Positions 6,451 through 61,532 of a stretch of 64,000 nucleotides of DNA are shown here, piece by piece; position 1 is the first letter of the stretch, and each line of letters starts with the position of its first letter. The position numbers and the translations under genes were made by a program. The notes beneath the pieces are model-generated. The model did not search any database. It saw nothing but the letters and a program-made list of their open reading frames with translations, and was not told the DNA's origin. The stretch comes from Bdellovibrionales bacterium (GTDB taxonomy: Bacteria > Bdellovibrionota > UBA1018 > CAIMNF01): the NCBI GenBank assembly GCA_947372355.1, contig CANBTI010000006.1:1-64000 (forward strand). The letters run 5' to 3'.

Positions 6451-7287
6451 TTAAAGAAAGAATTGAACCTGAATTTCAGGGTGATACCAAATATCTTCAT
6501 AGTGTGCAAAACTCTCAGCAGATATCAGCGGGGATTTTTTATAAATACCCGAACTACGTGACTCACCTAATAGGATATAAAAAGTATCGGTGTGGTAAAA
6601 AAAAGAAAGCCCGATATGCGTAAAGGGACCTGAAGTAGTATTGTATGCAGTTCCGGAAGGTAACTGCTCAATGAACGTTTCAGATTTATAATTTAAACCT
6701 AACACTCCCACTTCAGCAAAAAATCCAAAATGTGAATTTAAGTTAAACTGATTCAAAGTAGAAATAGACAGAACATAAGTCTCATTCTTTGGATTTAAGG
6801 AATGCGGATTTTCAGCATTCCAAAAATATTGATGCCCATTACTCAAATACAAAGTATAAAAATCAGAAAATTTTCTGGAAGCAGTGATTCTCACAAAAGC
6901 AGTACTCTGGATGTAAAGATCGCGAGGTCCTAAATTCTGATACGGTAAAGATTTTAAATAAGAACCTTCAATGGTTAAATTGAATGATTCATCTTGAATC
7001 AGCGCATAACGTAAATCGATTGCGGCAGAGTTATACAGTATAAAAAAAAATGGACTCGTTGCCACCATCAATCGATCACTCAAGCCCAAACCAACGACAT
7101 AAGATCCTAAAGTCACCTGATTCTTTAAAAGCACATCGGTTGTCGGAGTTAAATTATGGCCAGCAAAAAAAACATGACTCGATTTCACCGGAACTTCTTT
7201 TATTTCTAAAATCGGCTCCTCTGCATACACTTGAGTAAAAAAAAATTGAAAAAGAATGAAAATCACTGAAAAGGAACTTCGCCCCAA
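6451..7287 (-). CDS. Predicted outer-membrane beta-barrel protein
   Basis: Signal peptide, amphipathic strand pattern, C-terminal aromatic (QVQFFL). Confidence 0.6.
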   Translation of the reverse strand: MGRSSFSVIFILFQFFFTQVYAEEPILEIKEVPVKSSHVFFAGHNLTPTTDVLLKNQVTLGSYVVGLGLSDRLMVATSPFFFILYNSAAIDLRYALIQDESFNLTIEGSYLKSLPYQNLGPRDLYIQSTAFVRITASRKFSDFYTLYLSNGHQYFWNAENPHSLNPKNETYVLSISTLNQFNLNSHFGFFAEVGVLGLNYKSETFIEQLPSGTAYNTTSGPFTHIGLSFFYHTDTFYILLGESRSSGIYKKSPLISAESFAHYEDIWYHPEIQVQFFL

Positions 7288-8153
7288 CTGCGCACCATTT
7301 TCACTTCCGGCACTAAAGAATTACGACCAGTGATCATTTCCACCATCGATGAAGGAGTATAATCACGATAACGATAAAAGATTCCCCACTTGAAATCTAA
7401 TTTACCCTCACGCTTGAGGCGCAATGGAAGGGTCAAATCTAAAGAAAATACGTCTCCGATGACTGCATCTGGTTTCAATTCCATCAATGCCTGTTCGTAA
7501 GTAGGACGATCCGTATCAGCAATCACATCCAGGTTTTTTTGACCGCTCGTGTCTTTAGATAAGAATAATGGTCTTGGATTCTTGCCCAAGCCAAATTTCT
7601 TAGCTCCACCGCGAACTTGTGGACGAGAATCGACTGAATAATGATTTTGATCCAAAAACTCTACGATCTTATCCGTTGAAGAATTCGAAACAATGATCAC
7701 TTCATGACCTTTTTGAATGGCATCTTCCACCCATTTTTTTGCACCCATGTCGGGTTGCTTTTTAAGTTTTAATTGATGAAACGACCATTCTGATAGCTCA
7801 CTAAAGCTGCTCAACTGATCTTTAGCCTTCAGTTGCTTCAAGATTGATTTTGCCTTTACATCGCCATTTGCGGCTAAATAATCGAGAAAATCTGCCATTC
7901 CTATATTTCTGATGAATGGATCCTCGAAAGTAAATGCGGATACGCGTCCTTCACTTCTCCATCCAAATGAATAGGGCTTCGCCGCTTGGCGCGCTCGCAA
8001 CTCACCCATCCAAGAATCTATTTTATCCATAGACTCAAGACCGACTTCTTTTAAATCAAAAGAGATAATTTTCTCTTGAAAGTACTTTGTGCAGGCTTCC
8101 CCTTCTTCAGTGGGATCAGTAAAAATACCATCAAAATCCATGACGATTCGCAT
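7263..8153 (-). CDS. HAD-like hydrolase family protein
   Basis: N-terminal MRIVMDFDGIFTD, VIIVSNSS motif II, later ADTDRPTYEQALMELKPDAVIGD. Confidence 0.65.
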   Translation of the reverse strand: MRIVMDFDGIFTDPTEEGEACTKYFQEKIISFDLKEVGLESMDKIDSWMGELRARQAAKPYSFGWRSEGRVSAFTFEDPFIRNIGMADFLDYLAANGDVKAKSILKQLKAKDQLSSFSELSEWSFHQLKLKKQPDMGAKKWVEDAIQKGHEVIIVSNSSTDKIVEFLDQNHYSVDSRPQVRGGAKKFGLGKNPRPLFLSKDTSGQKNLDVIADTDRPTYEQALMELKPDAVIGDVFSLDLTLPLRLKREGKLDFKWGIFYRYRDYTPSSMVEMITGRNSLVPEVKMVRSWGEVPFQ

Positions 8154-9662: not shown

Positions 9663-12280
9663 AGAACGAGTTCAAGTACGGTATTTACCAATAAGATTGC
9701 TTCATTTCGTACATTCTTCACTAAGTGTAACTCCGTATAAGTTTGGCGATGAGCTGCAGGATTTCTAAGATCCTGAAGGGTCATTAATCTCTTAGCAATC
9801 GAAATGCATTTATCATTCATCGCCACCGCATCTAATTGAGTGCTCATCGGTAACAAAGGCGTTCCCTGAATTTGAGGAATTTTACGAGCAAAGATGAGAA
9901 AAATTACAGCCCATGCACGCAATCCATCAAACACCTTGAATCGATCCTGCATAATCTTCCCATTAAAAAAAGTAGCACACATGAGTTTTGCTTTATGGAG
10001 TGGAAATCCCTCAGGAGTCACTTTTCCCTTTAGTCCTAAAACAGTGAGTACTTTTTCGGCTGGAGGATAATCCTCAGAAAAACCAACATTGTGCCAAAGA
10101 GTTTGAAAATCATGCAATCGCTGATCTAAACGTGGAAATAAATACTTTTGTCCGAGATGTCGCTCTAAAATTAAATCCAGAGCCTTACAATATTCCAAAA
10201 CAGTGGGTGCTTTATCCACGGGAAGATTTTGGAGATCTTGGGATTGATGAAAAGGTTGTTCTGCCGCACGAAGTGCCGATTGAACGGTAGGATCTAATTT
10301 GCCAAAAAGTGGAATCACTTCTAAAAGTTTTTTATCCAGTTCCTTAAGTGCGTCTTGTCCGATCGTGTTCACCGCCTCTGCATTTGCTAAGGATTTAGTG
10401 TCTAAAATCAAACGATCCCGTAAACTCACTAATTTTTCCCATTGAGGATGATCAGGATTTTTTTCTAAGATATCTTCAATCGATTTAACAAAACCTTCCC
10501 CCCCTTTTTTGAGAGGATCAAAACAACGATAAATTTTATCTAAAATTTCTTCATTGAGTAGATTTTGTTTTAAATAATCAATCACAGCTTGTTTGGCTTT
10601 TAAATTCTGATGTGCGCAAAGTGCATCCAGAGCTCGGCCTCGTAAAATTTCAGACGGAGATTTGAGGAATGGGATGAGCGATTCACTAGTTTCCGGTGAT
10701 TGATCAAAATTCTTGAGCGCAATTATAGCATTGAGCACAACCGGTTCATGCTCATGGCTCAATTGTTTCACCAAATATGGCTCATTGAGTTTCACATGAC
10801 CAAGAATTCGAACCACACCCACTCTAAACTCTACATTGAAGTGTTCATAATAACTTTTTAAGATCGTTTCAAAATCCTTAACCCAGTACCCACCAGAAGC
10901 GTAAATATCAATGATCGATAACACTCTTTGCCCTAGTGTTTCGGATTCCTGTTGAGTGAGAGATAAAAGCGAACTCGCTAAAATAGCGGCTGGAACTCGT
11001 GCAGAATGTTTTTCAAGGTACAAAAGCAATGAACCACGAAGTGGAACTTTTTTGAAATCCATTTCAAAATTTTTGAGAATGGAAGGAACATCTACACCCA
11101 ATTCAGCACATGCACGAATCAAACGAGCATAAACTTGAGGTGAAATTCCCGCTTGAATCCAAGACTCTACTTTTTTAGAAATCTCATCCCGATTTGAATT
11201 GAGCAATCTCCCATTCAAATCATCATTCCACCCATTGATCCAACGAATGGCCATCTCATCACTAGAGTTTTTAAGATAAGATAATGCTTCTTTTTCAAAT
11301 GAACCGTTTACTTCTAACCACTTCAATCGAACTTCAGGCGAAAGCGTTGAAGGTTGAATTACTTTTTCTAATTTTTCGTGGAGTGAAGTTGAAATCCCTA
11401 GATCACGAAAAGCCTCAAACAAAATGTAGTAATTTTCGGCAATACCAGAATCTTTAACCGTTTGTGCAATTTCGAGTAAATACTGATCTCGACGTAAAAA
11501 AGAAACACCACGTAGAGCAAATAAAAACCTTTTCCAATCTTTAGAGGTAGAAAAAATACTAAGACCAAGAGCAACCTCTTCAGGATCAAAAGAATGTAAC
11601 TCTAGTGGCAAAACAGGATGAGGATCGGTAAGGGTAAAGATTTTATTTAAATAATCTTCTAACTTAAACTGACTTCGAATTTGAACTTGCGACAATGCAC
11701 TTTGATAAACTTGAGAAAGCAATCCGTCTTCTAATAATCTAGATTCGTAGCGCCCAATGGCCTGTTGAATCTCCTGTGGATAGCGAGATAATCTTCCTAA
11801 TGAAAATAAACCTGCAAATAGCAGATCATTACTCAATTTAATTTTGGAATGTTGAAATAAATCAATCAACTTGGGTAATGCAGAAAAAGCTTTCAGCTCC
11901 CCTAACGATAACAGGATATTTCTCAACCAAGACCAATCTTGTTTTAAGAATGCTTCATCCCAATCTTTAATCAATCGATCGGTGGAAGCAAGATCTTGAA
12001 CCACTCCTAAAGCGTGCGCTAAAGAAGATTTCAGTGTTTCAGGTGCGGTTGGATAGAAGTTCCTGAGAAAAGTTCGCGCAGAGATACTCTTTCTACGAGC
12101 TAATGCTGAAATTGCAAATTGTTGCTCAGCAAGATCTTCAGGATTTTGAACTATTTGAGTCAGAAAGTGAAAAGAACGAGCGTCCTGAAAATCCCCCATT
12201 TGGCGAAGGACTTCTAAGCGCGTAGTTCTCCACTCGCTTTCATGATATTGCCTGATAAACTCCCGCGGTTCGCGAGTCAT
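9659..12280 (-). CDS. Large HEAT-repeat-like protein
   Basis: 873 aa; repeated alpha-helical pairs resembling HEAT repeats. Confidence 0.6.
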   Translation of the reverse strand: MTREPREFIRQYHESEWRTTRLEVLRQMGDFQDARSFHFLTQIVQNPEDLAEQQFAISALARRKSISARTFLRNFYPTAPETLKSSLAHALGVVQDLASTDRLIKDWDEAFLKQDWSWLRNILLSLGELKAFSALPKLIDLFQHSKIKLSNDLLFAGLFSLGRLSRYPQEIQQAIGRYESRLLEDGLLSQVYQSALSQVQIRSQFKLEDYLNKIFTLTDPHPVLPLELHSFDPEEVALGLSIFSTSKDWKRFLFALRGVSFLRRDQYLLEIAQTVKDSGIAENYYILFEAFRDLGISTSLHEKLEKVIQPSTLSPEVRLKWLEVNGSFEKEALSYLKNSSDEMAIRWINGWNDDLNGRLLNSNRDEISKKVESWIQAGISPQVYARLIRACAELGVDVPSILKNFEMDFKKVPLRGSLLLYLEKHSARVPAAILASSLLSLTQQESETLGQRVLSIIDIYASGGYWVKDFETILKSYYEHFNVEFRVGVVRILGHVKLNEPYLVKQLSHEHEPVVLNAIIALKNFDQSPETSESLIPFLKSPSEILRGRALDALCAHQNLKAKQAVIDYLKQNLLNEEILDKIYRCFDPLKKGGEGFVKSIEDILEKNPDHPQWEKLVSLRDRLILDTKSLANAEAVNTIGQDALKELDKKLLEVIPLFGKLDPTVQSALRAAEQPFHQSQDLQNLPVDKAPTVLEYCKALDLILERHLGQKYLFPRLDQRLHDFQTLWHNVGFSEDYPPAEKVLTVLGLKGKVTPEGFPLHKAKLMCATFFNGKIMQDRFKVFDGLRAWAVIFLIFARKIPQIQGTPLLPMSTQLDAVAMNDKCISIAKRLMTLQDLRNPAAHRQTYTELHLVKNVRNEAILLVNTVLELVL

Positions 12281-46808: not shown

Positions 46809-46884
46809 GGACCCATAGTTAAAATGGATATAACAGATCTTTCCTAAAGATCAGTTCCAGGTTCAATTCCTGGTGGGGCCGCCA
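46809..46884 (+). tRNA. tRNA-Arg (anticodon CCU), attB-side tRNA for the integrative element; one acceptor mismatch
   Basis: GGACCCA..GTTA..TAAC..GATCT-TTCCTAA-AGATC..CCAGG-TTCAATT-CCTGG-TGGGGCC-G-CCA; A3:G70 mismatch. Confidence 0.9.
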
Positions 46885-46887
46885 TTT
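46877..46887. repeat. att-like direct repeat, tRNA side (GGCCGCCATTT)
   Basis: Identical to 55878-55888. Confidence 0.75.
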
Positions 46888-46988
46888 TCCGACCTTGGTT
46901 TTCGATTCAAAAAGTTAACCCATGAACAACAAACAAGAGTTCTTCTATTGTTTTGTTCGAGATCGCAGATTCCATATTTCTTGAATTG

Positions 46989-47134: not shown

Positions 47135-47299
47135 ATGAAAGCGATAGACTTGAAGGATTTAATTAGTGGATTGATCACAGTGATCATCATTGCCATTTCA
47201 GTTGGGCAATATGGGAAGTTGAGAGATTTTGCGAAAAAGGAGTTTGTGAGGTCGATGGGAAATTGTCCCGCCGAGTATCGGAAGGGGTATGCGAGATAA
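47135..47299 (+). CDS. Small single-TM protein (54 aa)
   Basis: MKAIDLKDLISGLITVIIIAISVGQYGKLRDFAKKEFVRSMGNCPAEYRKGYAR*, preceded by AGGAACGAGG; below the ORF-track length cutoff. Confidence 0.5.
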   Translation: MKAIDLKDLISGLITVIIIAISVGQYGKLRDFAKKEFVRSMGNCPAEYRKGYAR

Positions 47300-47400
47300 A
47301 TGCCAAACCTCAATTTCAACATTATCCATGCTCCCAAACGTTGACTTATCCTATTATAATCATTAAAATTTTCCACATACACGAAGATAAAAGAGGTATT

Positions 47401-50385
47401 ATGGTAGCAGGCAGAGATGAAGCTAAGGATAAGATCCAGCAACTTGTCATTCAATTTAGAGATCATATTGGCGAATACAAGAAAGCTTCATATAACGAAG
47501 CTAGTTTAAGAATCGATTTTTTGAATAAGTTCTTTAAAATTTTAGGTTGGGACGTTGAAAATAACGAAGGCTTAACTCCTTCTTTTCGAGAAGTTATTAC
47601 AGAAGATAGAGTTACTGTTGAAGGAAGAACGAAATCACCCGATTACTCATTTAGACTTAAAAATGGTACTCGGCAATTTTTCGTAGAAGCAAAAAAACCG
47701 GAAGTAAATATATCAAGTCATGCGCCTTCAGCTTTTCAGGTTCGTCGATATGGGTGGAACGCTGACGTAGGAATTAGCATTTTAACAAGTTTTGAATATC
47801 TTTCAGTATATGACTGTTCATCAAAGCCGACAGAGTCACAGGGCGCCAATTATTCACTACTTAAAATTTTTCATTTTGAAGATTACGTAAAAAATTTCGA
47901 TTACATCTGGGACACGTTCTCAAAGGAAGCCGTATATAAGGGTAGTTTAATTAATTTTAAGCTCACTAAAAACAAGAAGGGCTCATCTTCAGTAGACAAT
48001 GCGTTCCTTGAGTCTTTGGACGAATGGAGAGTGAGTCTCGCTAAGAGTATTTTTAAGAATAATGATATTGATGATGAAAATTTAAATTATGTTGTGCAAA
48101 AACTGATCGATCAAATAATTTTTTTACGAATTGCCGAGGATAGAGACATTGAAGAATACGGAAGCTTAAAGAAGATTTCAGAATCAAATGATGTTTTCAA
48201 AGATTTTTTAAAAATCTGTCACAAATCTAATGAAAAATACAATTCAGGGCTATTTGCTGAAGACAATATAATAAAGACGTTGAAAGTTGAGAGCAAGGAA
48301 TTCTCAAATATTATTAGAGACCTTTATTTCCCTATCTCACCATACGAATTTTCCGTAATGCCTCTTGATATCTTGGGAAAAGCATACGAACAGTTTCTCG
48401 GTAAAGTAATTGTGATTGATAAGAAAGGGAGATTATCAGTAACCGAAAAGCCGGAAGTTAAGAAGGCTGGAGGGGTTTTTTATACTCCAAAATATATTGT
48501 TGAAAGCATTGTGGAAGATACTGTCGGAAAACTGCTTGAAAATAAAACACCAGAAGCAGTAGCAAAGTTAAAAATATTAGACCCAGCATGCGGGAGCGGA
48601 ACATTTCTTCTTACTGCCTTTGAGCACTTACTAAATTGGCATAAAGCATATTTTGAAATTAATAAAAGCAAGCTTACAAAAAAAGCGCGAGAAGATGTCC
48701 TTACCCCTGATGGTGAGTTAACTACAAAATTTAAAGGGAAAATTCTTTTAAATAATATTTACGGTATTGATATTGATCGAAATGCGGTAGAAGTCACGAA
48801 ACTCAGCCTACTCTTAAAATGTTTAGAGGGTGAAAGTAAAGATACTCTAAAAGCCCAAATGTCTTTATTCCAAGAGCGGGTTTTACCGACATTAGACAAG
48901 AATATAGTGAGTGGCAACTCACTTGTGGACTTCGATATTTATGGTCTTTCTCCCAGTCTTGAGTCCGATCTAGGGGTTAAAAGAAAAATTAATGCATTCA
49001 ATTGGGAAACATCTTTTAAGGATGTATTTAAGGAAGGTGGCGGTTTTCAAGCAGTGATCGGAAATCCGCCATACGTAAGACAAGAACTTTTTTCTGAGTT
49101 GAAACCATATTTGGAGGAAAAATTTGAAGTTTATAATGGAGTAGCAGATTTATACACGTACTTTTTTGAACAGTCATATCGGCTTATGGCGCCAAATGGT
49201 TTGTTTTCAATAATTGTAGCAAATAAATGGTTTCGCGCGAGTTATGGTGAACAATTAAGAAAATGGTTAAAAACCGTTTGCTTGGAAAGTATCAAAGATT
49301 TTGGTGATCTTCCGGTCTTTGAAAACGCAACAACATACCCTTGTATCGTTAAAATCAAAAAATCAAAGCCGGCAAAGAAATTTTTGTTTTCTGATTTATT
49401 GAAACTTGGAATTCGAAATCCTAGGGAGCATAACACAGCTGAGTTTATTGATGTTGAGCTTTCTCGCCTAACAGATAAGGGCTGGGTTTTGGCGGATGAG
49501 AAAAGCCTAGATGTCCTTGATCAAATGAAGAAGATTGGGAAACCATTTCTCACGTATGTGAATAAAAATGTTTATCGAGGAGTTGTCACAGGAAAAAACG
49601 AAGCTTTTGTTATTTCAGAAGAACAGAAGAACGAATTAATTAAAAAAGATAAATCTAGTGCAGATTTAATTAAGGCTTTTGTTGAAGGTAAAGACGTAAA
49701 GGCCTTTTCTAAGATTAAGCCAAAGCACTATCTGATATTCACTCGGCGTGGCACTAATATTGCAAACTATCCAGCAATTGAAGAGCACTTGGAATCATTC
49801 AAATTAAAATTGATGCCTAAGCCAAAAAACTGGAAGCCGAAAAATGATGAAAAATGGCCGGGCCGCAAACCTGGGGAATACAAATGGTATGAGATTCAAG
49901 ACAGTATTGAATATTATAAAGAATTCGATAAAGACAAAATCATCTATCCTAGTATTTGTAAACAGCCAGAATTTACTTTAGACAATGAATCACTTTATAC
50001 AAATGATAAATGCTTCATTATTCCATTAAGTGATTTGTATTTATTGGGCGTTTTAAATTCTGAGTTGACATATTTTTGGTGTGAAATGCATTTGCCGAGA
50101 TTAAGAGGAGGTTTTTTTGAAACTAAAATTCCAATTTTTAAAAATCTACCGATTTGTCAAATAGACAGTAAAAAAAAGGACATGGTACAGGAAAAAGATA
50201 AAATTGTGCAGTGCGTAAAGAAGATTTTGGCTTTGGCTAGTAATAGTAAGGATAAGGGCAAAGAGTCTAAGACCGAATGCAATTATTACAGAAATGAGAT
50301 AAACAAGTCCGTGTATAAGATTTACGGCATTAAGCAAGTGGACAGTAAACATATTTCGGAGATTATTGAAAATGTTAAAAGATGA
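47401..50385 (+). CDS. Type IIG-like (Eco57I-type) fused restriction endonuclease/N6-adenine methyltransferase
   Basis: N-terminal nuclease-like SPDYSFRLKNGTRQFFVEAKKP; LDPACGSGTFLL (motif I), VIGNPPYVRQE (motif IV NPPY), C-terminal specificity region. Start set to ATG at 47401. Confidence 0.9.
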   Translation: MVAGRDEAKDKIQQLVIQFRDHIGEYKKASYNEASLRIDFLNKFFKILGWDVENNEGLTPSFREVITEDRVTVEGRTKSPDYSFRLKNGTRQFFVEAKKPEVNISSHAPSAFQVRRYGWNADVGISILTSFEYLSVYDCSSKPTESQGANYSLLKIFHFEDYVKNFDYIWDTFSKEAVYKGSLINFKLTKNKKGSSSVDNAFLESLDEWRVSLAKSIFKNNDIDDENLNYVVQKLIDQIIFLRIAEDRDIEEYGSLKKISESNDVFKDFLKICHKSNEKYNSGLFAEDNIIKTLKVESKEFSNIIRDLYFPISPYEFSVMPLDILGKAYEQFLGKVIVIDKKGRLSVTEKPEVKKAGGVFYTPKYIVESIVEDTVGKLLENKTPEAVAKLKILDPACGSGTFLLTAFEHLLNWHKAYFEINKSKLTKKAREDVLTPDGELTTKFKGKILLNNIYGIDIDRNAVEVTKLSLLLKCLEGESKDTLKAQMSLFQERVLPTLDKNIVSGNSLVDFDIYGLSPSLESDLGVKRKINAFNWETSFKDVFKEGGGFQAVIGNPPYVRQELFSELKPYLEEKFEVYNGVADLYTYFFEQSYRLMAPNGLFSIIVANKWFRASYGEQLRKWLKTVCLESIKDFGDLPVFENATTYPCIVKIKKSKPAKKFLFSDLLKLGIRNPREHNTAEFIDVELSRLTDKGWVLADEKSLDVLDQMKKIGKPFLTYVNKNVYRGVVTGKNEAFVISEEQKNELIKKDKSSADLIKAFVEGKDVKAFSKIKPKHYLIFTRRGTNIANYPAIEEHLESFKLKLMPKPKNWKPKNDEKWPGRKPGEYKWYEIQDSIEYYKEFDKDKIIYPSICKQPEFTLDNESLYTNDKCFIIPLSDLYLLGVLNSELTYFWCEMHLPRLRGGFFETKIPIFKNLPICQIDSKKKDMVQEKDKIVQCVKKILALASNSKDKGKESKTECNYYRNEINKSVYKIYGIKQVDSKHISEIIENVKR

Positions 50386-50632
50386 TCAGGTTTTAGCTCA
50401 ACTTATGTTCGATAAAGATTTAAATGTTACTGCTGCTTCAAAATGGAGTGACGAAGATATTCAAGAGATGATGACAACCTATCTCAAGACAAAACTTATC
50501 GCTTCAGAAACTAAAAACAATTCCTTGTATTTGATTATTAACGAAAAAATTTCGCAATTAAATTTGGCAATCAAACTTAAAACTAAAGCCAATTCCCATA
50601 ACCAAGCGTCATACGAACAACCTTCAATTTAA
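50366..50632 (+). CDS. Hypothetical protein overlapping RM gene end
   Basis: 88 aa ORF translationally overlapping the RM gene by 20 nt. Confidence 0.55.
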   Translation: MKMLKDDQVLAQLMFDKDLNVTAASKWSDEDIQEMMTTYLKTKLIASETKNNSLYLIINEKISQLNLAIKLKTKANSHNQASYEQPSI

Positions 50633-50679: not shown

Positions 50680-51066
50680 CTAGCTTGAAGAGACATAAAC
50701 CCAGCCAGATTTTTCTTTCAAACGACGCAATATTTTTTGTCTAACTAATCTTACCAAAGGCGTTGAAATCATATTTACTGAATAAATGTGGCCATTTTTT
50801 TCAAGCTCTTCCCTAGTTTCTCCAATTGTGCGTCTCGTTTTGAAGTATCCCGCGTTCGTTAACGCTATGACGTAGCCAGTGGGCCCACTAGATGTTCTTT
50901 TTGTTTTGGTCTTTGTTGGCGATGCTTTAAGCACATGTGCTTTAACGGCTGCTTTACCTTCCGAATCAAATTGAGCGATAGCTTTTGTCATTTGAATTAC
51001 TTCATCTGGAGTGCCTTCCATTGTAACAAGGAGACCTGAAGGTAATGTTAATTGAGTTTTTGCCAT
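50680..51066 (-). CDS. Unassigned protein, C-terminal winged-helix-like (operon gene 3)
   Basis: GYVIALTNAGYFKTRRTIGETREELEKNGHIYSVNMISTPLVRLVRQKILRRLKEKSGWVYVSSS. Confidence 0.65.
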   Translation of the reverse strand: MAKTQLTLPSGLLVTMEGTPDEVIQMTKAIAQFDSEGKAAVKAHVLKASPTKTKTKRTSSGPTGYVIALTNAGYFKTRRTIGETREELEKNGHIYSVNMISTPLVRLVRQKILRRLKEKSGWVYVSSS

Positions 51067-51083
51067 AATACTTTTTCCTTTTT

Positions 51084-51869
51084 TTAGTTGTTCGCCGAAT
51101 GGGCCTTGATAACAATTTGAGCTTCCTGAAAGCCTTGCTGCGTAAGCTTATAAAGCCCTTCCGCATTTTTATTTAAAAGTTTTTTGTTCCATAGTCTTTT
51201 CATCACGCTTGAAACCGAAGATTGAGCTCTTCGATCCATACTACCGCGAACCTGAGAAAAGCTTGCGTTTTCAGGGTAATAGCTATGCAACAATACAAGT
51301 GCCTCTTCTTCGGTCGATAAGTCACCAAAGACGATTTTTCTGGTGTCAAAATCTTCTACCATCGCCTCAACAGGCAACTGAATAAAAGCGACAAGCTTAC
51401 CTGCTTCTTGCATAGTGGACGAAGTCACACTACGAACCAATTCAGTTAAAATCCATTGCGCCGAGGAATAGCACCATCTCTGATCATAAATGTTTGGATC
51501 AACATCGCCTTTATGAAGAATGTTCCTTTTGTTTCGGAATGTGTACATTCCTCGCGCAACACGAGCGACACAAATTTTTAATCCATCGTGAAGATTAGCC
51601 TGTTGTGATTCCAAAGTTTTGAGATACTCATCAATATTTGGTTTATTTTCAAATTTTCCGATATCCAGAAATTGCAATGCTTGAACGATAGATTCCACAA
51701 ATTTACCAACAGATGATTTACCCAAAGTTCCCGTGACTGTATCCACACGGATATTCATAAACTCATTAACCAAATCGGTAGCAAGTTGAGGGTCGATCTT
51801 TGAAGTTAAAATAGTAATTACGTCTTTAGATTTCAAGTTGTAATCCTTTTGGCAGACATTTCGGTTCAT
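51084..51869 (-). CDS. HEPN-like protein with C-terminal winged-helix-like region (operon gene 2)
   Basis: RGMYTFRNKRNILHKGDVDPNIYDQRWCYSSAQWILTELVRSV (RN-x5-H); C-terminal SVSSVMKRLWNKKLLNKNAEGLYKLTQQGFQEAQ. Confidence 0.65.
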   Translation of the reverse strand: MNRNVCQKDYNLKSKDVITILTSKIDPQLATDLVNEFMNIRVDTVTGTLGKSSVGKFVESIVQALQFLDIGKFENKPNIDEYLKTLESQQANLHDGLKICVARVARGMYTFRNKRNILHKGDVDPNIYDQRWCYSSAQWILTELVRSVTSSTMQEAGKLVAFIQLPVEAMVEDFDTRKIVFGDLSTEEEALVLLHSYYPENASFSQVRGSMDRRAQSSVSSVMKRLWNKKLLNKNAEGLYKLTQQGFQEAQIVIKAHSANN

Positions 51870-51952
51870 TCATAAAAATATTTCAAGATTGTGAAACAGG
51901 TAACGTAGGGACGAGAATATTCAAAAGAGGCCCCAAACGTTACTCAGTCATA

Positions 51953-52555
51953 TTACTTTTCTCTTCTTACAAGCCCCCAATTTGCGGCATTCCAGCTCTC
52001 AGATGAGATGTCATTACAATAAGGCAAAAGAAACATTCCCAAACGATTCAATTCTGCACTTGTGAGACCTTCAAAAGGAATTTCAACTTTAACTTCGAAG
52101 CCTGTAGAAACTGGAAAAGAAAGCTTTCTCGAAGGCTTCCCCTGAGGACTTTCTTCTTGCTCCTGAGCTTTATTTTGATTGCGAGACTTACCTGTAGAAA
52201 CATTTTCGTCTTTAGCCTTCGATGTCGATTGCTTAGTTCGACTGATTACAGAACGTTCCCAAGCGGCCTTATCTTTTGACCATGCAGTGAAGTCATCTAA
52301 AGTATTTTTCACTCGAGACTTATAAACTTCAATAGTCTGACCAGTGAATTTATCTTTATTTTTAATGCTGAAACGATGAACTACTGAGTCGAGATTCTTT
52401 GTAATATACTCAACACACTTTTGGTCATCATCAAGAACGTTAAAAAGATTGTTACAAGCTGTTTTTCTTGAACCAGCAGTATTGGTGTTTAGGAAATTCT
52501 TATTTACCGTATAGTCTAAAAAATTGAAAACCTCTGAAATTGGCGTATGCATCAT
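51953..52555 (-). CDS. Unassigned protein (operon gene 1)
   Basis: 200 aa; helical N-terminus with FTGQTIEVYKSRVKNTLDDFTAWSKD, charged linker, beta-rich C-terminus (FPVSTGFEVKVEIPFEGLTSAELNRLGMFLLPYCND). Confidence 0.6.
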   Translation of the reverse strand: MMHTPISEVFNFLDYTVNKNFLNTNTAGSRKTACNNLFNVLDDDQKCVEYITKNLDSVVHRFSIKNKDKFTGQTIEVYKSRVKNTLDDFTAWSKDKAAWERSVISRTKQSTSKAKDENVSTGKSRNQNKAQEQEESPQGKPSRKLSFPVSTGFEVKVEIPFEGLTSAELNRLGMFLLPYCNDISSESWNAANWGLVRREK

Positions 52556-52616
52556 GTAATTCCTCCTGCAGTTAGTAATGTTTCACCAATGAAAAATCTC
52601 ACTGGCTAACTTCACT

Positions 52617-52654
52617 ATATTAACGCTTTCTTATTTTTGTCAACTCGTTAATAT
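52617..52654. promoter_or_regulatory. Candidate operator: 9-bp inverted repeat ATATTAACG-N20-CGTTAATAT
   Basis: Located between the minus-strand operon start and a plus-strand promoter. Confidence 0.5.
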
Positions 52655-53280: not shown

Positions 53281-53349
53281 ATGTCCTGCTTTAAACAATT
53301 ACAATCAGCTCTTCATTTTCAAACCAGAGGGCACTTGAATGAAAAGTAA
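53281..53349 (+). CDS. Possible 22-aa leader peptide coupled to downstream gene
   Basis: AAAAGGAAAATCT-ATG; MSCFKQLQSALHFQTRGHLNEK* overlaps the start codon of the 53339 ORF. Confidence 0.35.
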   Translation: MSCFKQLQSALHFQTRGHLNEK

Positions 53350-54286
53350 CCATCTCTTCTTAGCCCACCAAATCGCCCGCTTTGGAGCGATGTCGATTCA
53401 ACAGATGCAGTTCGCCTGTACTGGCAAATGCCATCGAGCAACCCTCTATCGAATGCTGAACGATCTCATTAAAAAAAGATTAGTGAAGCGCATCTCCCAT
53501 TACGGAAAATCCTCATTCCTATACTCACCCACCACCGATCTCTATGAACTGATCTACGGCGATGATTTGAAAAGAAACACCGGCCTAAATGGTGCGAACC
53601 TCCTTCATGCAGAAGCTGTGGCCGACGCACTTTTAAACTTGAGCCGGTATTCATTTGTCACCGGGATCGCATCTGAATTTGAGATTCACTCCAGTGACGT
53701 GGAAGCATTCTGTAGTAACAGAACACCCGACGGCATTATCCAACTCACAAACGATACTGGTTCATTCGTGCTCGCGGTGGAAGTGGAAAGAACCAGAAGG
53801 TCGAATGCAAGAATCAATGACGTGCTCAATAAATATAAGAAAACGTTTGCAAACAAGAGTATGCAATGTGCTGGACTGATCATCGTAGCCGGCGACAATA
53901 CTCTGCGCGATGTGTACCAAACGAAAATTGAAAAATATCATCCAGAGCTTGGCAAAGAAACCCTTGTCGTTACGATGGAGGAGCTTTCTACCTTGAAGGA
54001 AAAGCACTTTGGCGAATACCAAGGTGGCCCTGGAAAATGTTTAGAGAACATTGCGATGTGGTCTAATGGTGCACCAACCTTTTCTCCAATCATTTCAACA
54101 AATCGACATTTTAAAAACACCTCAATAGACCCATATGTAGATGGGCAGACAGCCACAGAAAACGAAACTGCAAAAACGGATGAAATGAATACAAATGACG
54201 ATGATGATCAGAATGAAAATCACATGTTCTCTGCTCACGTTTTACCACAGGAAGTGCTTAAGCGAGTGTTTGCGGATACAGACTGA
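53339..54286 (+). CDS. Replication-relaxation-like (MobC-type) protein
   Basis: N-terminal wHTH (SIQQMQFACTGKCHRATLYRMLNDLIKKRLVKRI) plus nuclease-like TPDGIIQL...FVLAVEVERTRRSNARINDVLNKYKKTF. Confidence 0.6.
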   Translation: MKSNHLFLAHQIARFGAMSIQQMQFACTGKCHRATLYRMLNDLIKKRLVKRISHYGKSSFLYSPTTDLYELIYGDDLKRNTGLNGANLLHAEAVADALLNLSRYSFVTGIASEFEIHSSDVEAFCSNRTPDGIIQLTNDTGSFVLAVEVERTRRSNARINDVLNKYKKTFANKSMQCAGLIIVAGDNTLRDVYQTKIEKYHPELGKETLVVTMEELSTLKEKHFGEYQGGPGKCLENIAMWSNGAPTFSPIISTNRHFKNTSIDPYVDGQTATENETAKTDEMNTNDDDDQNENHMFSAHVLPQEVLKRVFADTD

Positions 54287-54436: not shown

Positions 54437-54628
54437 ATGATCTTTGATAATTTGGCTTGGATGACTTCAGCGGAAGCTGCAACTTATATCCGAAAATCAG
54501 TAGGCGCTCTTCACACAGCGGTTTGTCGTGGACAACTCCCCTGTCATAAATGGAGGCGCAGACTTTATTTTCGGAAAAATGACCTCGATAAAATATTAGA
54601 ACACTCCCAACAAATCGGAGGCATCTAA
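54437..54628 (+). CDS. Excisionase-like helix-turn-helix protein
   Basis: MTSAEAATYIRKSVGALHTAVCRGQLPCHKWRRRLYFRKNDLDKIL; directly upstream of and overlapping integrase. Confidence 0.75.
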   Translation: MIFDNLAWMTSAEAATYIRKSVGALHTAVCRGQLPCHKWRRRLYFRKNDLDKILEHSQQIGGI

Positions 54629-55779
54629 TGGCAGTATCTAGTTATGAAAAAAATGGGAAAACTTTGTGGAAGGTTTATTTTAACCTTCGAGACAAAGAGA
54701 ATAAATCCATCCGGGAACAAAAATTGGTTCTCGGTTTTGAAACAAAAGAAGCAGCACTCGCTGGAGAGAAAAAACTCGTAAGAGAAGTAACAGAGAGATT
54801 AGTTAAACGAGCAGCCCAGGGTTACAGTTGGGAAGCCGTGATTGATAAATGGGAATTGGCCATGAGGAACAACCCAACTATCTATCACTACCAACCTGAC
54901 ACGATCTTGAATCACGTTCGGCTGATCCGACGATCCACGGAAATTTGGTTAAATAAACCAGCATCACTACTTACTATTGGCGATGCTCGTGAGGTTTTTA
55001 ACAAATTAGAAATGGAAACTCGGAGCCATAAGTACCTGAGCAACATTAAGTTTGCGATTAACGTCGTTTACAAATGGGGAATGGAACAAAAGTTTATTCC
55101 CCATGTGCATGTTACTCCGGTTCAGGGCTTAGTTTTGAAGCGAACCCAAGAAGAGAAAGTTCCCGATATCCTCACGATTGATGAGATTCGGACTCTTCTT
55201 TATAACGCGAAAAAACTTGAACACCCTTGGTATCCGGTGTGGTCGATGGCTCTTTTGACAGGAATGCGTAATGGCGAACTTCACAGCCTTTTGTGGACAG
55301 ACGTAGATCTGGAAAACCACAAAATCACGGTGAACAAGTCTTACCATTCTAAGAGAAAGATCATCAAGAGCACGAAGAGTGGCAATTGGAGAACGGTTCC
55401 CATATCCGACGATCTGAACGAACTGCTAGTTTTTCTCAAAAGCAAAACAGGAGCGACACAAAATGTGCTCCCCCGCTTTTGGGAATGGAATAGTGGTCGA
55501 CAGGCTGAGGTATTGAGAGCGTTCTGTATAGGCATTGGAATCCGCCCTGTTTGCTTTCACGCTCTCAGGGCATGCTTTGCAACTCAACTGCTCGCTCTTG
55601 ATATTGCACCAGCTAGGATCATGAAAATCTGCGGCTGGCGCGATTTAAAGACCATGCAGGTTTATACTCGCCTAGCGGGTGTAGATGAGAAAAATGCGAC
55701 TCAAGGACTTCGGATTTTACCGAATGATTCGGATGCGGCGCAAGAATTTGCAAATCTTCTCAAGTTTAAACGTAAGTAA
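54628..55779 (+). CDS. Tyrosine recombinase/integrase
   Basis: LLTGMRNGELHSLLWTDVDLE; FHALRACFATQLLALDIAPARIMKICGWRDLKTMQVYTR. Confidence 0.92.
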   Translation: MAVSSYEKNGKTLWKVYFNLRDKENKSIREQKLVLGFETKEAALAGEKKLVREVTERLVKRAAQGYSWEAVIDKWELAMRNNPTIYHYQPDTILNHVRLIRRSTEIWLNKPASLLTIGDAREVFNKLEMETRSHKYLSNIKFAINVVYKWGMEQKFIPHVHVTPVQGLVLKRTQEEKVPDILTIDEIRTLLYNAKKLEHPWYPVWSMALLTGMRNGELHSLLWTDVDLENHKITVNKSYHSKRKIIKSTKSGNWRTVPISDDLNELLVFLKSKTGATQNVLPRFWEWNSGRQAEVLRAFCIGIGIRPVCFHALRACFATQLLALDIAPARIMKICGWRDLKTMQVYTRLAGVDEKNATQGLRILPNDSDAAQEFANLLKFKRK

Positions 55780-55822: not shown

Positions 55823-55877
55823 ACTTAAAAAACCTATCAAATGAGTTAACGAAGCGAATTCAAATCAAAGTCGGAGT

Positions 55878-55888
55878 GGCCGCCATTT
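55878..55888. repeat. att-like direct repeat, distal side (GGCCGCCATTT)
   Basis: Identical to 46877-46887; overlaps stop codon of the phospholipase A gene. Confidence 0.75.
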
Positions 55889-56685
55889 AAAGACCAATTC
55901 CCGCCCTAAATCCCCAAACGCTTTGATCATACTCTAAAAGATTTTCGCCATAGCCTTGAAAAATTTGAAAAACAGTCTTCACTAAAAAAGCACTACTTTT
56001 ACCTTTGATCCGAAGGGTGAGCTCTCGTCCTCCTTGGAGTGGATTCAGATGCGTGGCTCCACCGGGAAAAAATTTTAGAGTTAGATCATTGGAATTGAAG
56101 TATCCATTCATAAAGCCCTCGATACTGGGTGAGGTTAGAGTTCTCAGCATCAAAATTAAATGGAACCCAAGCATGAGTGTTCCAAGTTAGTTTCACATCA
56201 TTTTTGAAGAAAAAAGATTTTTGAAACTTCACCCCAAAGCGATCCCACGAACGGGTGGTTCGATCGCCCATTCCATTTGATTCATGCTCATAACCCACTA
56301 AATCAATTATGGCTTCAGATGGATCATCAAGATGGATGCGATAAAAAAGAGATGGATTATAATCCACATCCCTAAAAGGACTCGATTTTTTAAATAGGTC
56401 CCAAAAAACTTTCTGAGTATAAGCGACATAAAAATCGGTATGGGTAAATATCTTAGCTTTGAAACTTATTTGTGCTTTCACCTCAGGTGCACCCACCAGA
56501 AAATACATGGGTTGATCGTGAGAAAGTTGAATTAAATCTTGATCGATGACTCCAGATTCAGCTGCTGAGCTATTTTGAGAGATCAAAACTAAAAATAAAA
56601 TGGAGAAGATCAAATGACCAAAATGTCCCAGAGGTTTTGAGCAGAAAATACTCAAACCCAACCCATTACCTGTTTGTTTGCACAT
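55887..56685 (-). pseudogene. Outer-membrane phospholipase A (OMPLA), apparently frameshifted
   Basis: NPSLFYR..GYEHESNGMGDRTTRSWDRFGVKFQKSF in ORF 56086-56685; C-terminal LQGGRELTLRIKG..KTVFQIFQGYGENLLEYDQSVWGFRAGIGL in a different frame (55887-56174). Confidence 0.8.
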
Positions 56686-56723: not shown

Positions 56724-57968
56724 TTACTCCGCAGTACCGATCGATTCAGCTAATAATAATTGAGCAAATTTAAAATCACGACGGTATTGAAGATCTCGTA
56801 ATTTCGTATCAAACAACTTCTCAGTAGCGCTTGCCACATCCAATGAGTTTTTAATCCCACGTTTATACTCTGCTGTGGTGATTTCATAATAACGTTTTGA
56901 ACGATCTAAATTCTTTTCTTCAAGATCAGCTCTAGATCCAATTGTTTTTAGTTTTGAAAAGGCCATCTCGACTTGAACTTTCATTTGTTGCTCTACACGC
57001 TTCATTGTAACTTCAGCTCGATCCATTTCATGAGCTTTACTCACCCGTTCATAATAACTATCAAAACCCGAAAATAAAGGTAATGAAACTTTTAGAAGAA
57101 TTCCAAGAGTCGGTGTTTCTGTTAAAATCCGATCTGCACGCGGTAGATTTCCATAATTTGCCTCAAAATCAGCCTTAGGGAACCAAGATCCTAAGGTTGC
57201 AGAATGAGCAAAGGTTGCGATACTTAGATTTTTTTTAGCTTCAATTAAATCTTCACGTTCATTTTGAGCTTGTGAAATGAGTTCCGATAATTCTTTATTG
57301 ACTGGAACACGATTCAACGCGCCACTAACTTCGATATTAGTATTAGTTTCATCACGGCCTAAAATTCTCAAAAACTCACGCATAGAACTAAGTTTTTCTT
57401 GTTCTAAAAGTAAAAGATCAGAATGCAAAGTGGCTTCTCTCAATTCAAATTCCAAAACGTCAGAATCAGAAGTAATGCCTGCAGCTTTTCGTTTTTCAGC
57501 CATCTTTAATTGAGATTGATTGATTTCGAGTGCCTGAATTTTCAATTTATTCGCTTCTTGAATAAATAATAGATCGTAAAACTGATGAGCCACTTCTCTT
57601 TGAACTCGAACTTTTGTTTTCGCTAAATGAAAATCAGCAAACTCTTGTTCTTTTGATTGAGTTTTAAAAGCGTTAAAATCTTTGCCACCATTGTATAAAT
57701 TATAACGCCCATAAGCGAATGCAAATCCATTTGAAGCATTCGTTTGAGAAGAATGATAAGATTCTGCACCCCCTTCAATACCAATTTCGGGATAATAAAA
57801 GGATCTTGTCTTACCTTTTAATGCAGTTGCTGATTCTAATTTTAAATTCGCCTCCATCACTTCTTTATTGTGAATCATTGCTTCATTTAAAAAATCGGCC
57901 AGAGTAATACTATCGCTTGCCTGAGCAATCATAGAACTGAAAATTAAAATGAATGGTATCTTCCTCAT
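56724..57968 (-). CDS. TolC-family outer-membrane efflux protein
   Basis: SITLADFLNEAMIHNKEVMEANLKLESATALKGKTRSFYYPEIGIEGG; EYKRGIKNSLDVASATEKLFDTKLRDLQYRRDFKFAQLLL. Confidence 0.9.
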   Translation of the reverse strand: MRKIPFILIFSSMIAQASDSITLADFLNEAMIHNKEVMEANLKLESATALKGKTRSFYYPEIGIEGGAESYHSSQTNASNGFAFAYGRYNLYNGGKDFNAFKTQSKEQEFADFHLAKTKVRVQREVAHQFYDLLFIQEANKLKIQALEINQSQLKMAEKRKAAGITSDSDVLEFELREATLHSDLLLLEQEKLSSMREFLRILGRDETNTNIEVSGALNRVPVNKELSELISQAQNEREDLIEAKKNLSIATFAHSATLGSWFPKADFEANYGNLPRADRILTETPTLGILLKVSLPLFSGFDSYYERVSKAHEMDRAEVTMKRVEQQMKVQVEMAFSKLKTIGSRADLEEKNLDRSKRYYEITTAEYKRGIKNSLDVASATEKLFDTKLRDLQYRRDFKFAQLLLAESIGTAE

Positions 57969-57987
57969 GCCGTTCGCCTTTAAACTC

Positions 57988-58389
57988 TTAGTTTTGCGGT
58001 TCTACTTGAAATAAAACTTTTTCGGTCTTACTTTTGTATGAAACTTCTAAAGAAAATGAATAGTGATAAGCGCCTTTAGCATCTACGATTGCTTCATAAT
58101 GATCCCCCACTTGAGATAATTTTACATTTTCTTTCTTTTTCTTCGGAACTTGTGAACTCGCAACCAATTTTACATCATTGGTGGAAATTGCAGTGAGATC
58201 ATGAGTGAGTGGGTATAGTTTAATACCTGAAGCATCACTCACCAGTTCAATATAAAGCTGATTAGTTCCTTTAATCACTCCACCATGAGGCGCTGCAATT
58301 GAACCCGGTGTTTTGTTATGACCTTCGTGTGCAAATGCAGTACCAATAAACGCCAAACTCATTACCAACATCATTATTTTTTGTTTCAT
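57988..58389 (-). CDS. Small periplasmic protein of metal-efflux operon (HGG motif)
   Basis: Signal peptide; AHEGHNK...APHGGVIKGTNQLYIELV. Confidence 0.7.
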   Translation of the reverse strand: MKQKIMMLVMSLAFIGTAFAHEGHNKTPGSIAAPHGGVIKGTNQLYIELVSDASGIKLYPLTHDLTAISTNDVKLVASSQVPKKKKENVKLSQVGDHYEAIVDAKGAYHYSFSLEVSYKSKTEKVLFQVEPQN

Positions 58390-58391
58390 AC

Positions 58392-61300
58392 TTAATGACC
58401 TCCATCATGTGATTGTTTTAATATTACCTTTGTAGATTGAATTGCTTTTTCCGCTGAATTTTTACCAAAATAGAAAAATAAAGAGGGAGTAACCACCATA
58501 TCCAGGAGTGTTGAACTAAATAAGCCTCCCACGATCACTACCGCCATAGGATGAAGAATCTCTTTCCCCGGTTGTCCTTTAGACAAAACTAATGGAATCA
58601 ATGCAAGAGAAGCAGTTAACGCGGTCATGAGTACAGGAACTAGCCGCTCCAATGATCCACGAATCACCATCTCTTTTGAAAACTTTTCACCTTCATTTTT
58701 CATCAAATGCAGATAATGACTAATCATCATGATTCCATTACGACTAGAAATTCCACAAAGAGTGATAAACGCAACTAGAGTGGCAACTGAAAAAATTCGA
58801 TCCGATAAGAATATCGCAATTAAACTTCCAATGAGTGCCATTGGAATATTAAGCATGATTTGAAAGGCAATAAAGTTAGATTTAAAATGAGCATACAAAA
58901 CCAGGAAAATTCCCAACAGTGAAAACATTCCTAAAAGAAGAATTAATCGAGAAGCTTTTTGTTGACTCTCAAATTGCCCACCGATTTCAATAAAATATCC
59001 ATTGGGAAGTCTAACATTAGCACTCAGATTGGCTTTTATTTCTTCTACTAGGCTATTTAAATCTCTTCCAGAAGCGTTTGCTTGTACCACTATTCTTCTT
59101 TGAACATTTTCATGATTAATAATGTTCTGACCAGTCGATTCGTAAACGTCAGCAATTTTTTCTAGTGAAATCTTACTGCCATCTGGCATGATCTTCATTG
59201 TCGTTTTCTTCATTAATTCAATATTGGAACGAGACTGATCATCAAAACGCATGAACACGTTGAAAATTCTTTGGTTTTCTAAAACCTGAGCTACCACTTC
59301 CCCTTTAAGAGCCATTTCTAAAGTTGAAGCAAGATCCCCTAAAACAATTCCATATTTAGCTGCTTCTTCTCTCAACAATTGAATTTTAATTTGTGGAACC
59401 AGCACTTGCTGTTCAGATTGTAGATCCACTAACCCCTTTGTTCCCTGAATAGCATGTTGAATTTCAGCCGCTTTTAATCGTAATACAGCTAGATCTGGTC
59501 CAAATAACTTGATGGCGATTTGTGCTCTGACTCCTGATAAAAGATGATCCAATCGATGAGAAATTGGCTGGCCAATATTCACAAATACACCTGGGATGGA
59601 TTCAAGTTTTTTACGCATTTCATCTAAAACTACATCTCTCGTTCTTTGAGAAGTTTTAAAATCAACATCAATTTCTGAAGAATGAACGCCTTCTGCATGT
59701 TCATCTAATTCAGCTCTTCCGGTTCTTCTCGCTACCGATTTTACTTCAGGCACACTGAGCATTAACTGCTCAGCCTTGGTCCCCAATTCATTTGATGCTT
59801 CCAGAGAGATACCCGGTGCTGCAAGTAAACTCACCGTAGCAGTACCTTCGTTAAATTTTGGTAAGAAATCTTTACCAATGAACGGGATTAAAGCTAAAGA
59901 ACAAAAGAAAATCACTGTAGCGATCACCATGATCATTTTTGGATGATCGAGTGCCCTCATTAAAACTTTTCGATCCCAATGTTTCAACCATTTTACTAAT
60001 CTGCTATCTTCATGTTGAAAAATCTTTTGCTTGGAAAAAAGATAAGAACAAAGCACAGGAGTAACAGTGAGTGAAACCAGAAGCGACGCCAATAACGAAA
60101 TAATATAGGCTATTCCAAGAGGAATAAATAAGCGACCTTCGATACCACTGAGATAAAAAAGTGGAATAAAAACTAAAACAACAATGATGGTTGCAAAAAC
60201 AATTGAATTTCTCACCTCAGATGAAGCGTTATAAATTACCTGTAAAGTGGATTGAGGTTTTTCCTTTTTTTGATTTTCTCGTAATCTACGATAAATGTTT
60301 TCAACATCCACTACAGCATCATCCACCAACTCTCCAATGGCAACAGCAAGGCCCCCCAGAGTCATGGTATTTACTGAGATTCCAAAATATTTCATCACGA
60401 TGGCAGTGAGAACAAATGATAATGGTATTGCGGTTAAAGTGACTGCAGTAGTTCTAAAATTCAACAGAAAAATAAATAAAACAATCATCACAAGTACAGC
60501 ACCATCACGGAGTGCTTCTTTTACATTGGCGATTGCTGATTCAATAAAGTTTGCCTGCTTGAACAACTCCCTTTCAAGAACCACTCCTTTGGTGAAACTT
60601 TTAGAAATATCATTTAAAACTCGATCAATTTCTTTGGTGAGCTCAACCGTATTTGCACCCGGTTGTTTTTGAATACTCACGATCACCGCAGGAGCTCCAT
60701 TCACGGAAGCATCCCCCCGTTTAATTTGGGCTCCAATTTTTACTTCAGCTACTTCTTTTACCAAAACAGGTCTGCCGAGATGATAACCCACTACAGAATT
60801 ACGGATATCCTCTTCTGATCGAACCGTTCCAATATTTCGAATCAAAAATTCTTTTTGATCCACATCGATAAATCCACCCGTCGTGTTTTGACTCAAGTGA
60901 GTTAAACTATGTTGCACATCTTCTAAAGAGAGACGAAACTGTTGAAGTTTTTCAGCAGAAAGTAAAAGCTGAAATTGCTTTACCCCTCCACCAATTGAAA
61001 TCACTTGGGCCACTCCAGGAACACTGAGTAATCGAGGTCTGATCACCCAATCAGCGATCGTTCTGAGTTGAATGGGATCAATATTTTTATCCGTGGATGA
61101 AAGGCCCAAGAGTTGGATCTCACCCATAATGGATGCAATCGGTCCCATTACTGGAGTAATTTCTTTAGGTAACTTTTCTTTTGCTATAGAAAGCTTCTCC
61201 GCAACTAATTGTCGATTGCGATAAATATCGGTTCCCCAAGCAAATTCTAAATAGATTACAGAAAGACCAATTCCCGATGAAGAGCGCACTCTCTCCACAC

Positions 61301-61532
61301 CTGGCAAACCATTGAGTACGGTTTCAAGTGGCAAGGTCACTAATGTTTCCACTTCTTCAGGAGCCATGCCTGAAGCTTCGGTCATAATATTCACAGTGGG
61401 GCGATTGAGATCCGGGAAAACATCAACAGGAAGATTCACGATCACGTAACCACCATAAGCAGTTAAAAAAGCCGTCATCACAACGACTAAGAGCCTATGA
61501 GTTAATGAAAATCGAATCACTCGATCAAGCAT
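58392..61532 (-). CDS. CusA/CzcA-family heavy-metal RND efflux pump
   Basis: 1046 aa; LPVDVFPDLNRPTVNIMTEASGMAPEEVETLVTLPLE; GGLAVAIGELVDDAVVDVENIYRRL; TLCGISSRNGIMMISHY. Confidence 0.94.
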   Translation of the reverse strand: MLDRVIRFSLTHRLLVVVMTAFLTAYGGYVIVNLPVDVFPDLNRPTVNIMTEASGMAPEEVETLVTLPLETVLNGLPGVERVRSSSGIGLSVIYLEFAWGTDIYRNRQLVAEKLSIAKEKLPKEITPVMGPIASIMGEIQLLGLSSTDKNIDPIQLRTIADWVIRPRLLSVPGVAQVISIGGGVKQFQLLLSAEKLQQFRLSLEDVQHSLTHLSQNTTGGFIDVDQKEFLIRNIGTVRSEEDIRNSVVGYHLGRPVLVKEVAEVKIGAQIKRGDASVNGAPAVIVSIQKQPGANTVELTKEIDRVLNDISKSFTKGVVLERELFKQANFIESAIANVKEALRDGAVLVMIVLFIFLLNFRTTAVTLTAIPLSFVLTAIVMKYFGISVNTMTLGGLAVAIGELVDDAVVDVENIYRRLRENQKKEKPQSTLQVIYNASSEVRNSIVFATIIVVLVFIPLFYLSGIEGRLFIPLGIAYIISLLASLLVSLTVTPVLCSYLFSKQKIFQHEDSRLVKWLKHWDRKVLMRALDHPKMIMVIATVIFFCSLALIPFIGKDFLPKFNEGTATVSLLAAPGISLEASNELGTKAEQLMLSVPEVKSVARRTGRAELDEHAEGVHSSEIDVDFKTSQRTRDVVLDEMRKKLESIPGVFVNIGQPISHRLDHLLSGVRAQIAIKLFGPDLAVLRLKAAEIQHAIQGTKGLVDLQSEQQVLVPQIKIQLLREEAAKYGIVLGDLASTLEMALKGEVVAQVLENQRIFNVFMRFDDQSRSNIELMKKTTMKIMPDGSKISLEKIADVYESTGQNIINHENVQRRIVVQANASGRDLNSLVEEIKANLSANVRLPNGYFIEIGGQFESQQKASRLILLLGMFSLLGIFLVLYAHFKSNFIAFQIMLNIPMALIGSLIAIFLSDRIFSVATLVAFITLCGISSRNGIMMISHYLHLMKNEGEKFSKEMVIRGSLERLVPVLMTALTASLALIPLVLSKGQPGKEILHPMAVVIVGGLFSSTLLDMVVTPSLFFYFGKNSAEKAIQSTKVILKQSHDGGH

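Follow-up and report, generated by a model that had tools for sequence, protein, structure and literature searches.

A HEPN RNase is the shared lethal component of many prokaryotic immune and toxin systems. In the HEPN-MNT (HepT-MntA) type II toxin–antitoxin systems, a neutralising small partner is encoded next to a HEPN RNase-like protein. The anticodon nucleases PrrC and RloC are HEPN RNases found in or beside restriction-modification (R-M) loci, including type I hsd operons (PMC3710099, PMC3874165); PrrC lies within a type I R-M operon, whose enzyme keeps it sequestered (PMC3874165). The Abi HEPN families (AbiF/AbiD, AbiJ, AbiU2 and the C-terminal domain of AbiA) are often located near R-M genes, and HEPN proteins of the EC042_2821 / DUF3644 type, which also carry a winged helix, are found in R-M operons (PMC3710099). 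Here we analyse a locus in a 64,000-nucleotide stretch of DNA (the window, to which all coordinates refer unless a locus is named), where a gene termed B and its probable partner C form what looks like an undescribed toxin or phage-defence module.

The putative mobile element and its small genes

B and C lie in an interval of about 9 kb, whose cargo consists of a type IIG R-M gene, C, B, A, a MobC/replication-relaxation-like gene and an integrase. The initial annotation had described three same-strand genes (200, 261 and 128 aa) between R-M and mobility modules, and both the three reading frames and this setting are borne out: all three are on the minus strand, with the type IIG R-M enzyme (47263–50385, plus strand; PADLOC 4.9e-209) on one side and, on the other, a protein weakly resembling MobC/replication-relaxation proteins (53339–54286, plus strand; E 1.5e-4, far below the family cut-off) and the tyrosine integrase of the element (54628–55779, plus strand; Pfam 7e-18). 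An attachment-like repeat on the left (46872–46894, plus strand) overlaps the 3' end of a tRNA-Arg(CCT) gene (46809–46884) and recurs about 95 bp past the integrase (55873–55895, plus strand), with 18 of 23 bases identical and the core GGCCGCCATTT; in 40 Markov-resampled sequences of 12 kb the best score was 15 identical bases of 23, so that 18 was never attained. Given this repeat at a tRNA 3' end, its recurrence and the adjoining integrase, the interval looks like a tRNA-Arg-integrated mobile element. In G007, the closest relative that was examined, unrelated genes and not the element follow the identical tRNA, the right flank being non-syntenic on a short contig. An 88-aa reading frame (50366–50632) overlaps the end of the type IIG R-M gene and has a weak TiaS_TCKD match (5e-5, below cut-off), and directly to the right of the element there is an efflux cluster (56724–61532) with a TolC-like protein and an RND pump, both named by eye.

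Gene A (51953–52555, minus strand; 200 aa) is separated from B (51084–51869, minus strand; 261 aa), the core of the module, by a gap of 83 bp, and B from C (50680–51066, minus strand; 128 aa) by one of 17 bp. A sigma-70-like promoter 5' of A (52614–52643, minus strand; TTGACA-18-TATAGT, 11 of 12 matches) possibly drives A, B and C, such sites occurring in this region in a chance number, and the promoter scan of the region listed no promoter-like site in the A–B gap. Common strand, short gap and promoter position all favour a three-gene system that requires A; yet relatives of A were found in six other loci, all within the window's phylum and all without B, and none was found at the 33 loci with B relatives. 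A was therefore rejected as a member of the module on the grounds of these disjoint loci, and an obligate role for it appears barely tenable. Accordingly, 'three-gene operon' was too strong a term, since A is not a regular companion of B and C: the three reading frames are real, but the conserved unit is B plus its partner. A is better regarded as a gene of the element in its own right, which may be co-transcribed with B and C in the window. Its sole match across Pfam, NCBIfam, PADLOC and PHROGs is the unnamed phrog_2602 (E 7.5e-5), and it has an existence outside mobile elements, because several relatives share one syntenic and ordinary context: those in L044, L045, L046 and L047 occupy the same place, next to a HAD-like phosphatase, a PilZ-like protein and a sugar-nucleotide enzyme (by eye).

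The B family and its winged-helix partner

The HEPN-like core that had been proposed for the 261-aa protein gains support from its motif as well as from its predicted fold. The motif FRNKRNILHKGDVDP, i.e. RN-x5-H or R-x6-H (51513–51536, minus strand), extends from R112 to H119 when Met1 is counted and from R111 to H118 in the numbering of our family alignment, which omits Met1 and is used for residues of the alignment. All 30 aligned members have its R and H, so the motif is not there by chance; R114 (also 30 of 30), N125, D128, W138, E142 and R145 are likewise invariant. HEPN domains are recognized by R-x4-6-H at the end of helix 3, a polar residue after the R, an acidic residue within helix 2 and an insert that separates this helix from helix 3 (PMC3710099), and B has all four features: R111-x6-H118 is found in every row, the residue following the motif R is N112 in 28 rows and S in the other two, the acidic residue of helix 2 is E58 in all 29 rows having a residue at this position, and the insert is present. 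At position +4 from E58, typically K or R in HEPN proteins (E-x3-[KR]), 20 rows have R and window B has Q (E-x3-Q). In the model of the domain, the motif R is placed in the last turn of helix 86–104 and the H in the loop after it.

AlphaFold2 models the helical bundle (about residues 27–161; 51387–51791, minus strand) with a pLDDT of 90 and a pTM of 0.86. The full-length model (pLDDT 87) has an all-alpha N-terminal part and, as anticipated in the initial annotation, a winged helix at the C-terminus (about residues 186–260; 51090–51314, minus strand), and it is mainly this winged helix that was matched when the whole model was used in Foldseek (MarR, IdeR and HxlR; probability about 1, E above 0.1). 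With the model of the N-terminal domain, the first seven PDB matches included 1ufb, 2hsb, 4nqf (twice) and sacsin 3o10 (twice), with Csm6 (6tug) in eighth place; these matches have probabilities of 0.51–0.97, TM scores of 0.38–0.54 by query length and E values of 0.2–1, and a single non-HEPN entry, the GIT1 bundle 6iuh, is among the first eight. The entries 2hsb, 4nqf and 3o10 are named HEPN; 1ufb (TT1696) we take to be a HEPN protein as well, and the 6tug match is presumably to the HEPN part of Csm6. Because E values of 0.2–1 make the fold match weak by itself, it counts jointly with the motif, and together they point to B as a probable HEPN RNase-like protein with a C-terminal winged helix.

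Two distant relatives of B from searches of the window's phylum were the basis of a first alignment, with which a scan of the genome collection found 29 loci, both starting relatives among them; L038, L039 and L041 were added from whole-genome searches, and L004 is the Natronomonas plasmid PL131. In total, B relatives are present in 33 other genomes or records, i.e. in nine bacterial phyla and on this one haloarchaeal plasmid. The distribution is rare and patchy: about 1% of the sampled genomes carry the family, with whole-genome searches finding it in 3 of 365 genomes of the window's own phylum (the window's genome counted in) and in 3 of 298 and 2 of 399 genomes of two other phyla (each including the genome used as the centre). 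The closest relative found of window B is that of G403 (L039), with 40% identity over 245 columns (41% by BLASTP); in the tree the two form a group (support 100/100) on a long branch of their own, and the remaining rows, from nine bacterial phyla, show mixing between phyla. Horizontal transfer of the family is likely, the tree alone being no proof of it.

The initial annotation had left the gene set without assignment to a known defence system, and this stands, with no known defence or housekeeping family matched. Neither B nor C has a convincing match in Pfam, NCBIfam, PADLOC or PHROGs, no system model of PADLOC-DB 2.0.0 matched B significantly, and sequence profiles matched no HEPN family. 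A search for Abi_C (PF14355) as a parent family found nothing, its control likewise being without a match; BFVD gave no meaningful structural match, and the phage search (with L003's B, A and C as queries) no match, while PL131 was the only match among plasmids. In the open literature, to which our search was confined, no description of the B–partner pair was found.

What does accompany B is a winged-helix partner. With leave-one-out profiles, a partner gene was detected just upstream of B and on the same strand in 31 of the 33 relative loci (E 4e-54 to 4e-5), the two genes recurring together across phyla; what is conserved is therefore a pair of genes and not a triad. The two loci without an upstream partner are the haloarchaeal plasmid (L004) and L024, whose B looks truncated. 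Partners have roughly 155–255 aa and begin with a short N-terminal domain, which is helical in some cases and in others beta-rich and marked by an 'EGS' signature; a linker then leads to a C-terminus resembling a winged helix. None has a Pfam match to a nucleotidyltransferase. In many loci the reading frames of partner and B overlap by a few bases, which suggests that they are translationally coupled.

In the window, the gene that probably corresponds to this partner is C, located downstream of B. Like the partners, it has an N-terminal domain ('LPSG..V.MEGTPDEVIQM'), a linker and a winged-helix-like C-terminus, the last of these, already noted in the initial annotation, being probable as judged from sequence. 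Partner-family profiles did not detect C. Its N-terminus matches the downstream partner of L006 with an E value of 3e-4 in a comparison with over 1,000 decoys, shuffled as well as real, the next best value being 0.65, and in the reversed test the three best matches of C were true partners, ahead of all shuffles. C is thus probably, if not certainly, a downstream version of the partner, the pairwise match being weak but above the decoys. Weak matches of C in G207 and G258 were discarded as a BlaI-like and a Fis-like region, respectively.

Genomic context and possible modes of action

Apart from the partner, the neighbours of B are not conserved. R-M genes adjoin B in 4 of 34 loci, each time of a different kind: type IIG in the window, type I in G403, XamI-type II in G612 and a type II methylase in L019 (7e-176). 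In G403, the pair lies on the opposite strand, flanked by hsdS and hsdR (Methylase_S 5e-33, HSDR_N 2e-39, N6_Mtase 8e-89); it is found at 10940–12215 of L068, where the hsdR-like protein has a weak C-terminal Peptidase_S24 match. In G612, it comes after a XamI endonuclease (1.7e-103) and an Eco57I-type methylase, and B is followed by a 203-aa reading frame (L038 2387–2998, L069 8047–8658) with the sequence RDLRNMLIHAY (an RNxxxH motif) and without a Pfam or PADLOC match, possibly a second HEPN protein. A SIR2-like gene in L011 (6761–7942; PADLOC SIR2 1.5e-20) starts 14 bp after B. About 430 bp after B in L018, two reading frames of 96 and 100 aa (7167–7762) resemble a small toxin–antitoxin pair, the second having a helix-turn-helix look. 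The genes downstream of B in L014, L030, L031 and L038 match no family, and most other neighbourhoods consist of ordinary genes rather than defence islands; an enrichment of R-M and defence genes near B is an impression.

We consider it just about probable that B and C constitute a two-component module of the toxin–antitoxin or abortive-infection kind, in which a HEPN RNase is held latent by a winged-helix partner. The model is borrowed from the HEPN-MNT toxin–antitoxin pairs and from PrrC. The two genes would be cargo of the tRNA-Arg-integrated element of about 9 kb, beside its type IIG R-M enzyme, and B would be a HEPN ribonuclease fused to a winged helix. The N-terminal domain of the partner may serve in oligomerisation or binding, with the linker providing flexibility. 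We envisage B and the partner as joined in a complex, probably located on DNA, which would keep the RNase latent and at the same time repress the operon. An infecting phage could disturb this complex, as could the disappearance of the partner or of the R-M enzyme next to it, and the released B would then cleave RNA, either tRNA or mRNA, and arrest growth in the way PrrC does next to its type I R-M enzyme. The observations themselves comprise the anatomy, the invariant motif, the predicted fold, the recurring gene pair, its patchy occurrence, the location on an element and the R-M genes next to four loci; that B is an RNase, that it is kept latent and neutralised by the partner, what triggers it and that it acts against phages are what we infer, as we do the label 'defence module'.

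Several other readings have to be weighed against this one. The adjacent R-M enzyme itself might silence B, and a phage disabling this enzyme would release it, as with PrrC and EcoprrI; in favour of this are the R-M genes adjoining B in the window (within the same element), G403, G612 and L019, and PrrC, sequestered by the type I R-M enzyme in whose operon it is embedded (PMC3874165), provides the precedent. The G403 copy between hsdS and hsdR offers, besides PrrC, another natural setting for asking whether an RNase is guarded by an R-M enzyme. However, this adjacency occurs in four of the 34 loci only, with the type of R-M system changing each time, and the constant neighbour is the winged-helix partner and not an R-M gene; we consider such a guard quite unlikely. 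A non-toxic regulator, in which HEPN domain and winged helix bind RNA or DNA, a role suggested for HEPN proteins that have lost catalysis such as MtlR, would agree with winged helices throughout and with the mostly ordinary genes in the neighbourhoods scanned; but the catalytic R and H show no variation across nine phyla, neighbours other than the partner are not conserved and the family is rare and patchy, and we regard this reading as quite unlikely, too.

Another idea is that B and one to three paralogous winged-helix subunits form a complex on particular, e.g. invading, DNA, which switches the RNase on. Every component has a winged helix, and that of the partner aligns to that of B in hhalign (probability 60, E 9e-5), although this supports a shared origin of the winged helices only weakly. 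The reading stays alive because some loci have several partners: two to three partner genes are found in L006, L014, L018 and L026—with the weaker of the two matches adjoining B in L014—and L032 has a partner-like reading frame on the opposite strand. For such loci, a simple antitoxin is no better an explanation than a complex of several subunits; most loci, however, have a single partner, and the DNA-sensing complex in this form seems unlikely. A bolder reading, an unnamed immune module found across phyla in which one to three winged-helix subunits sensing DNA or its state control a winged-helix HEPN RNase, with a tie to R-M in the window–G403 branch as a fallback, is a possibility that we hold to be rather doubtful. 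Should the pair act in defence or as a toxin–antitoxin, it would add a new principle of control, directly testable with two small genes.

Comparison with known systems

The significance of the B family lies in its spread over nine phyla with a constant partner, while Pfam, NCBIfam and PADLOC 2.0.0 do not model it. To our knowledge, a winged-helix partner of this type is not known from other HEPN systems. With PrrC and RloC, B shares the location of a HEPN RNase in or beside R-M loci, type I hsd operons included; in contrast to these, B, with its 261 aa, lacks an ABC ATPase domain but combines a winged helix with a partner gene of its own, and its link to R-M exists in a minority of loci. The G403 pair also resembles DarTG2, a toxin–antitoxin pair nested in a type I R-M locus (PMC12255303), but DarT is an ADP-ribosyltransferase and not a HEPN protein, and no homology is claimed.

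The Abi HEPN families are similar to B in having a family-specific HEPN domain with a conserved R-x4-6-H, whereas no member of the B-family set A3 matches an Abi HEPN model of PADLOC or Pfam, the weak AbiEi match in this set being confined to the winged helix. Proteins of the EC042_2821 / DUF3644 type share with B the combination of HEPN domain and winged helix and an occurrence in R-M operons (PMC3710099), but they also have restriction endonuclease and Zn-ribbon domains, whereas B consists of the HEPN domain and the C-terminal winged helix only. In its two-gene layout, i.e. an R-x4-6-H HEPN RNase-like protein with a small partner gene, the B module is like HEPN-MNT; yet its partner is a protein with a linker and a winged helix and not a nucleotidyltransferase, is usually encoded upstream and is joined by a B with a winged helix of its own. 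HEPN toxins with small partners are already known; the B family and its winged-helix partner add a new form to these.
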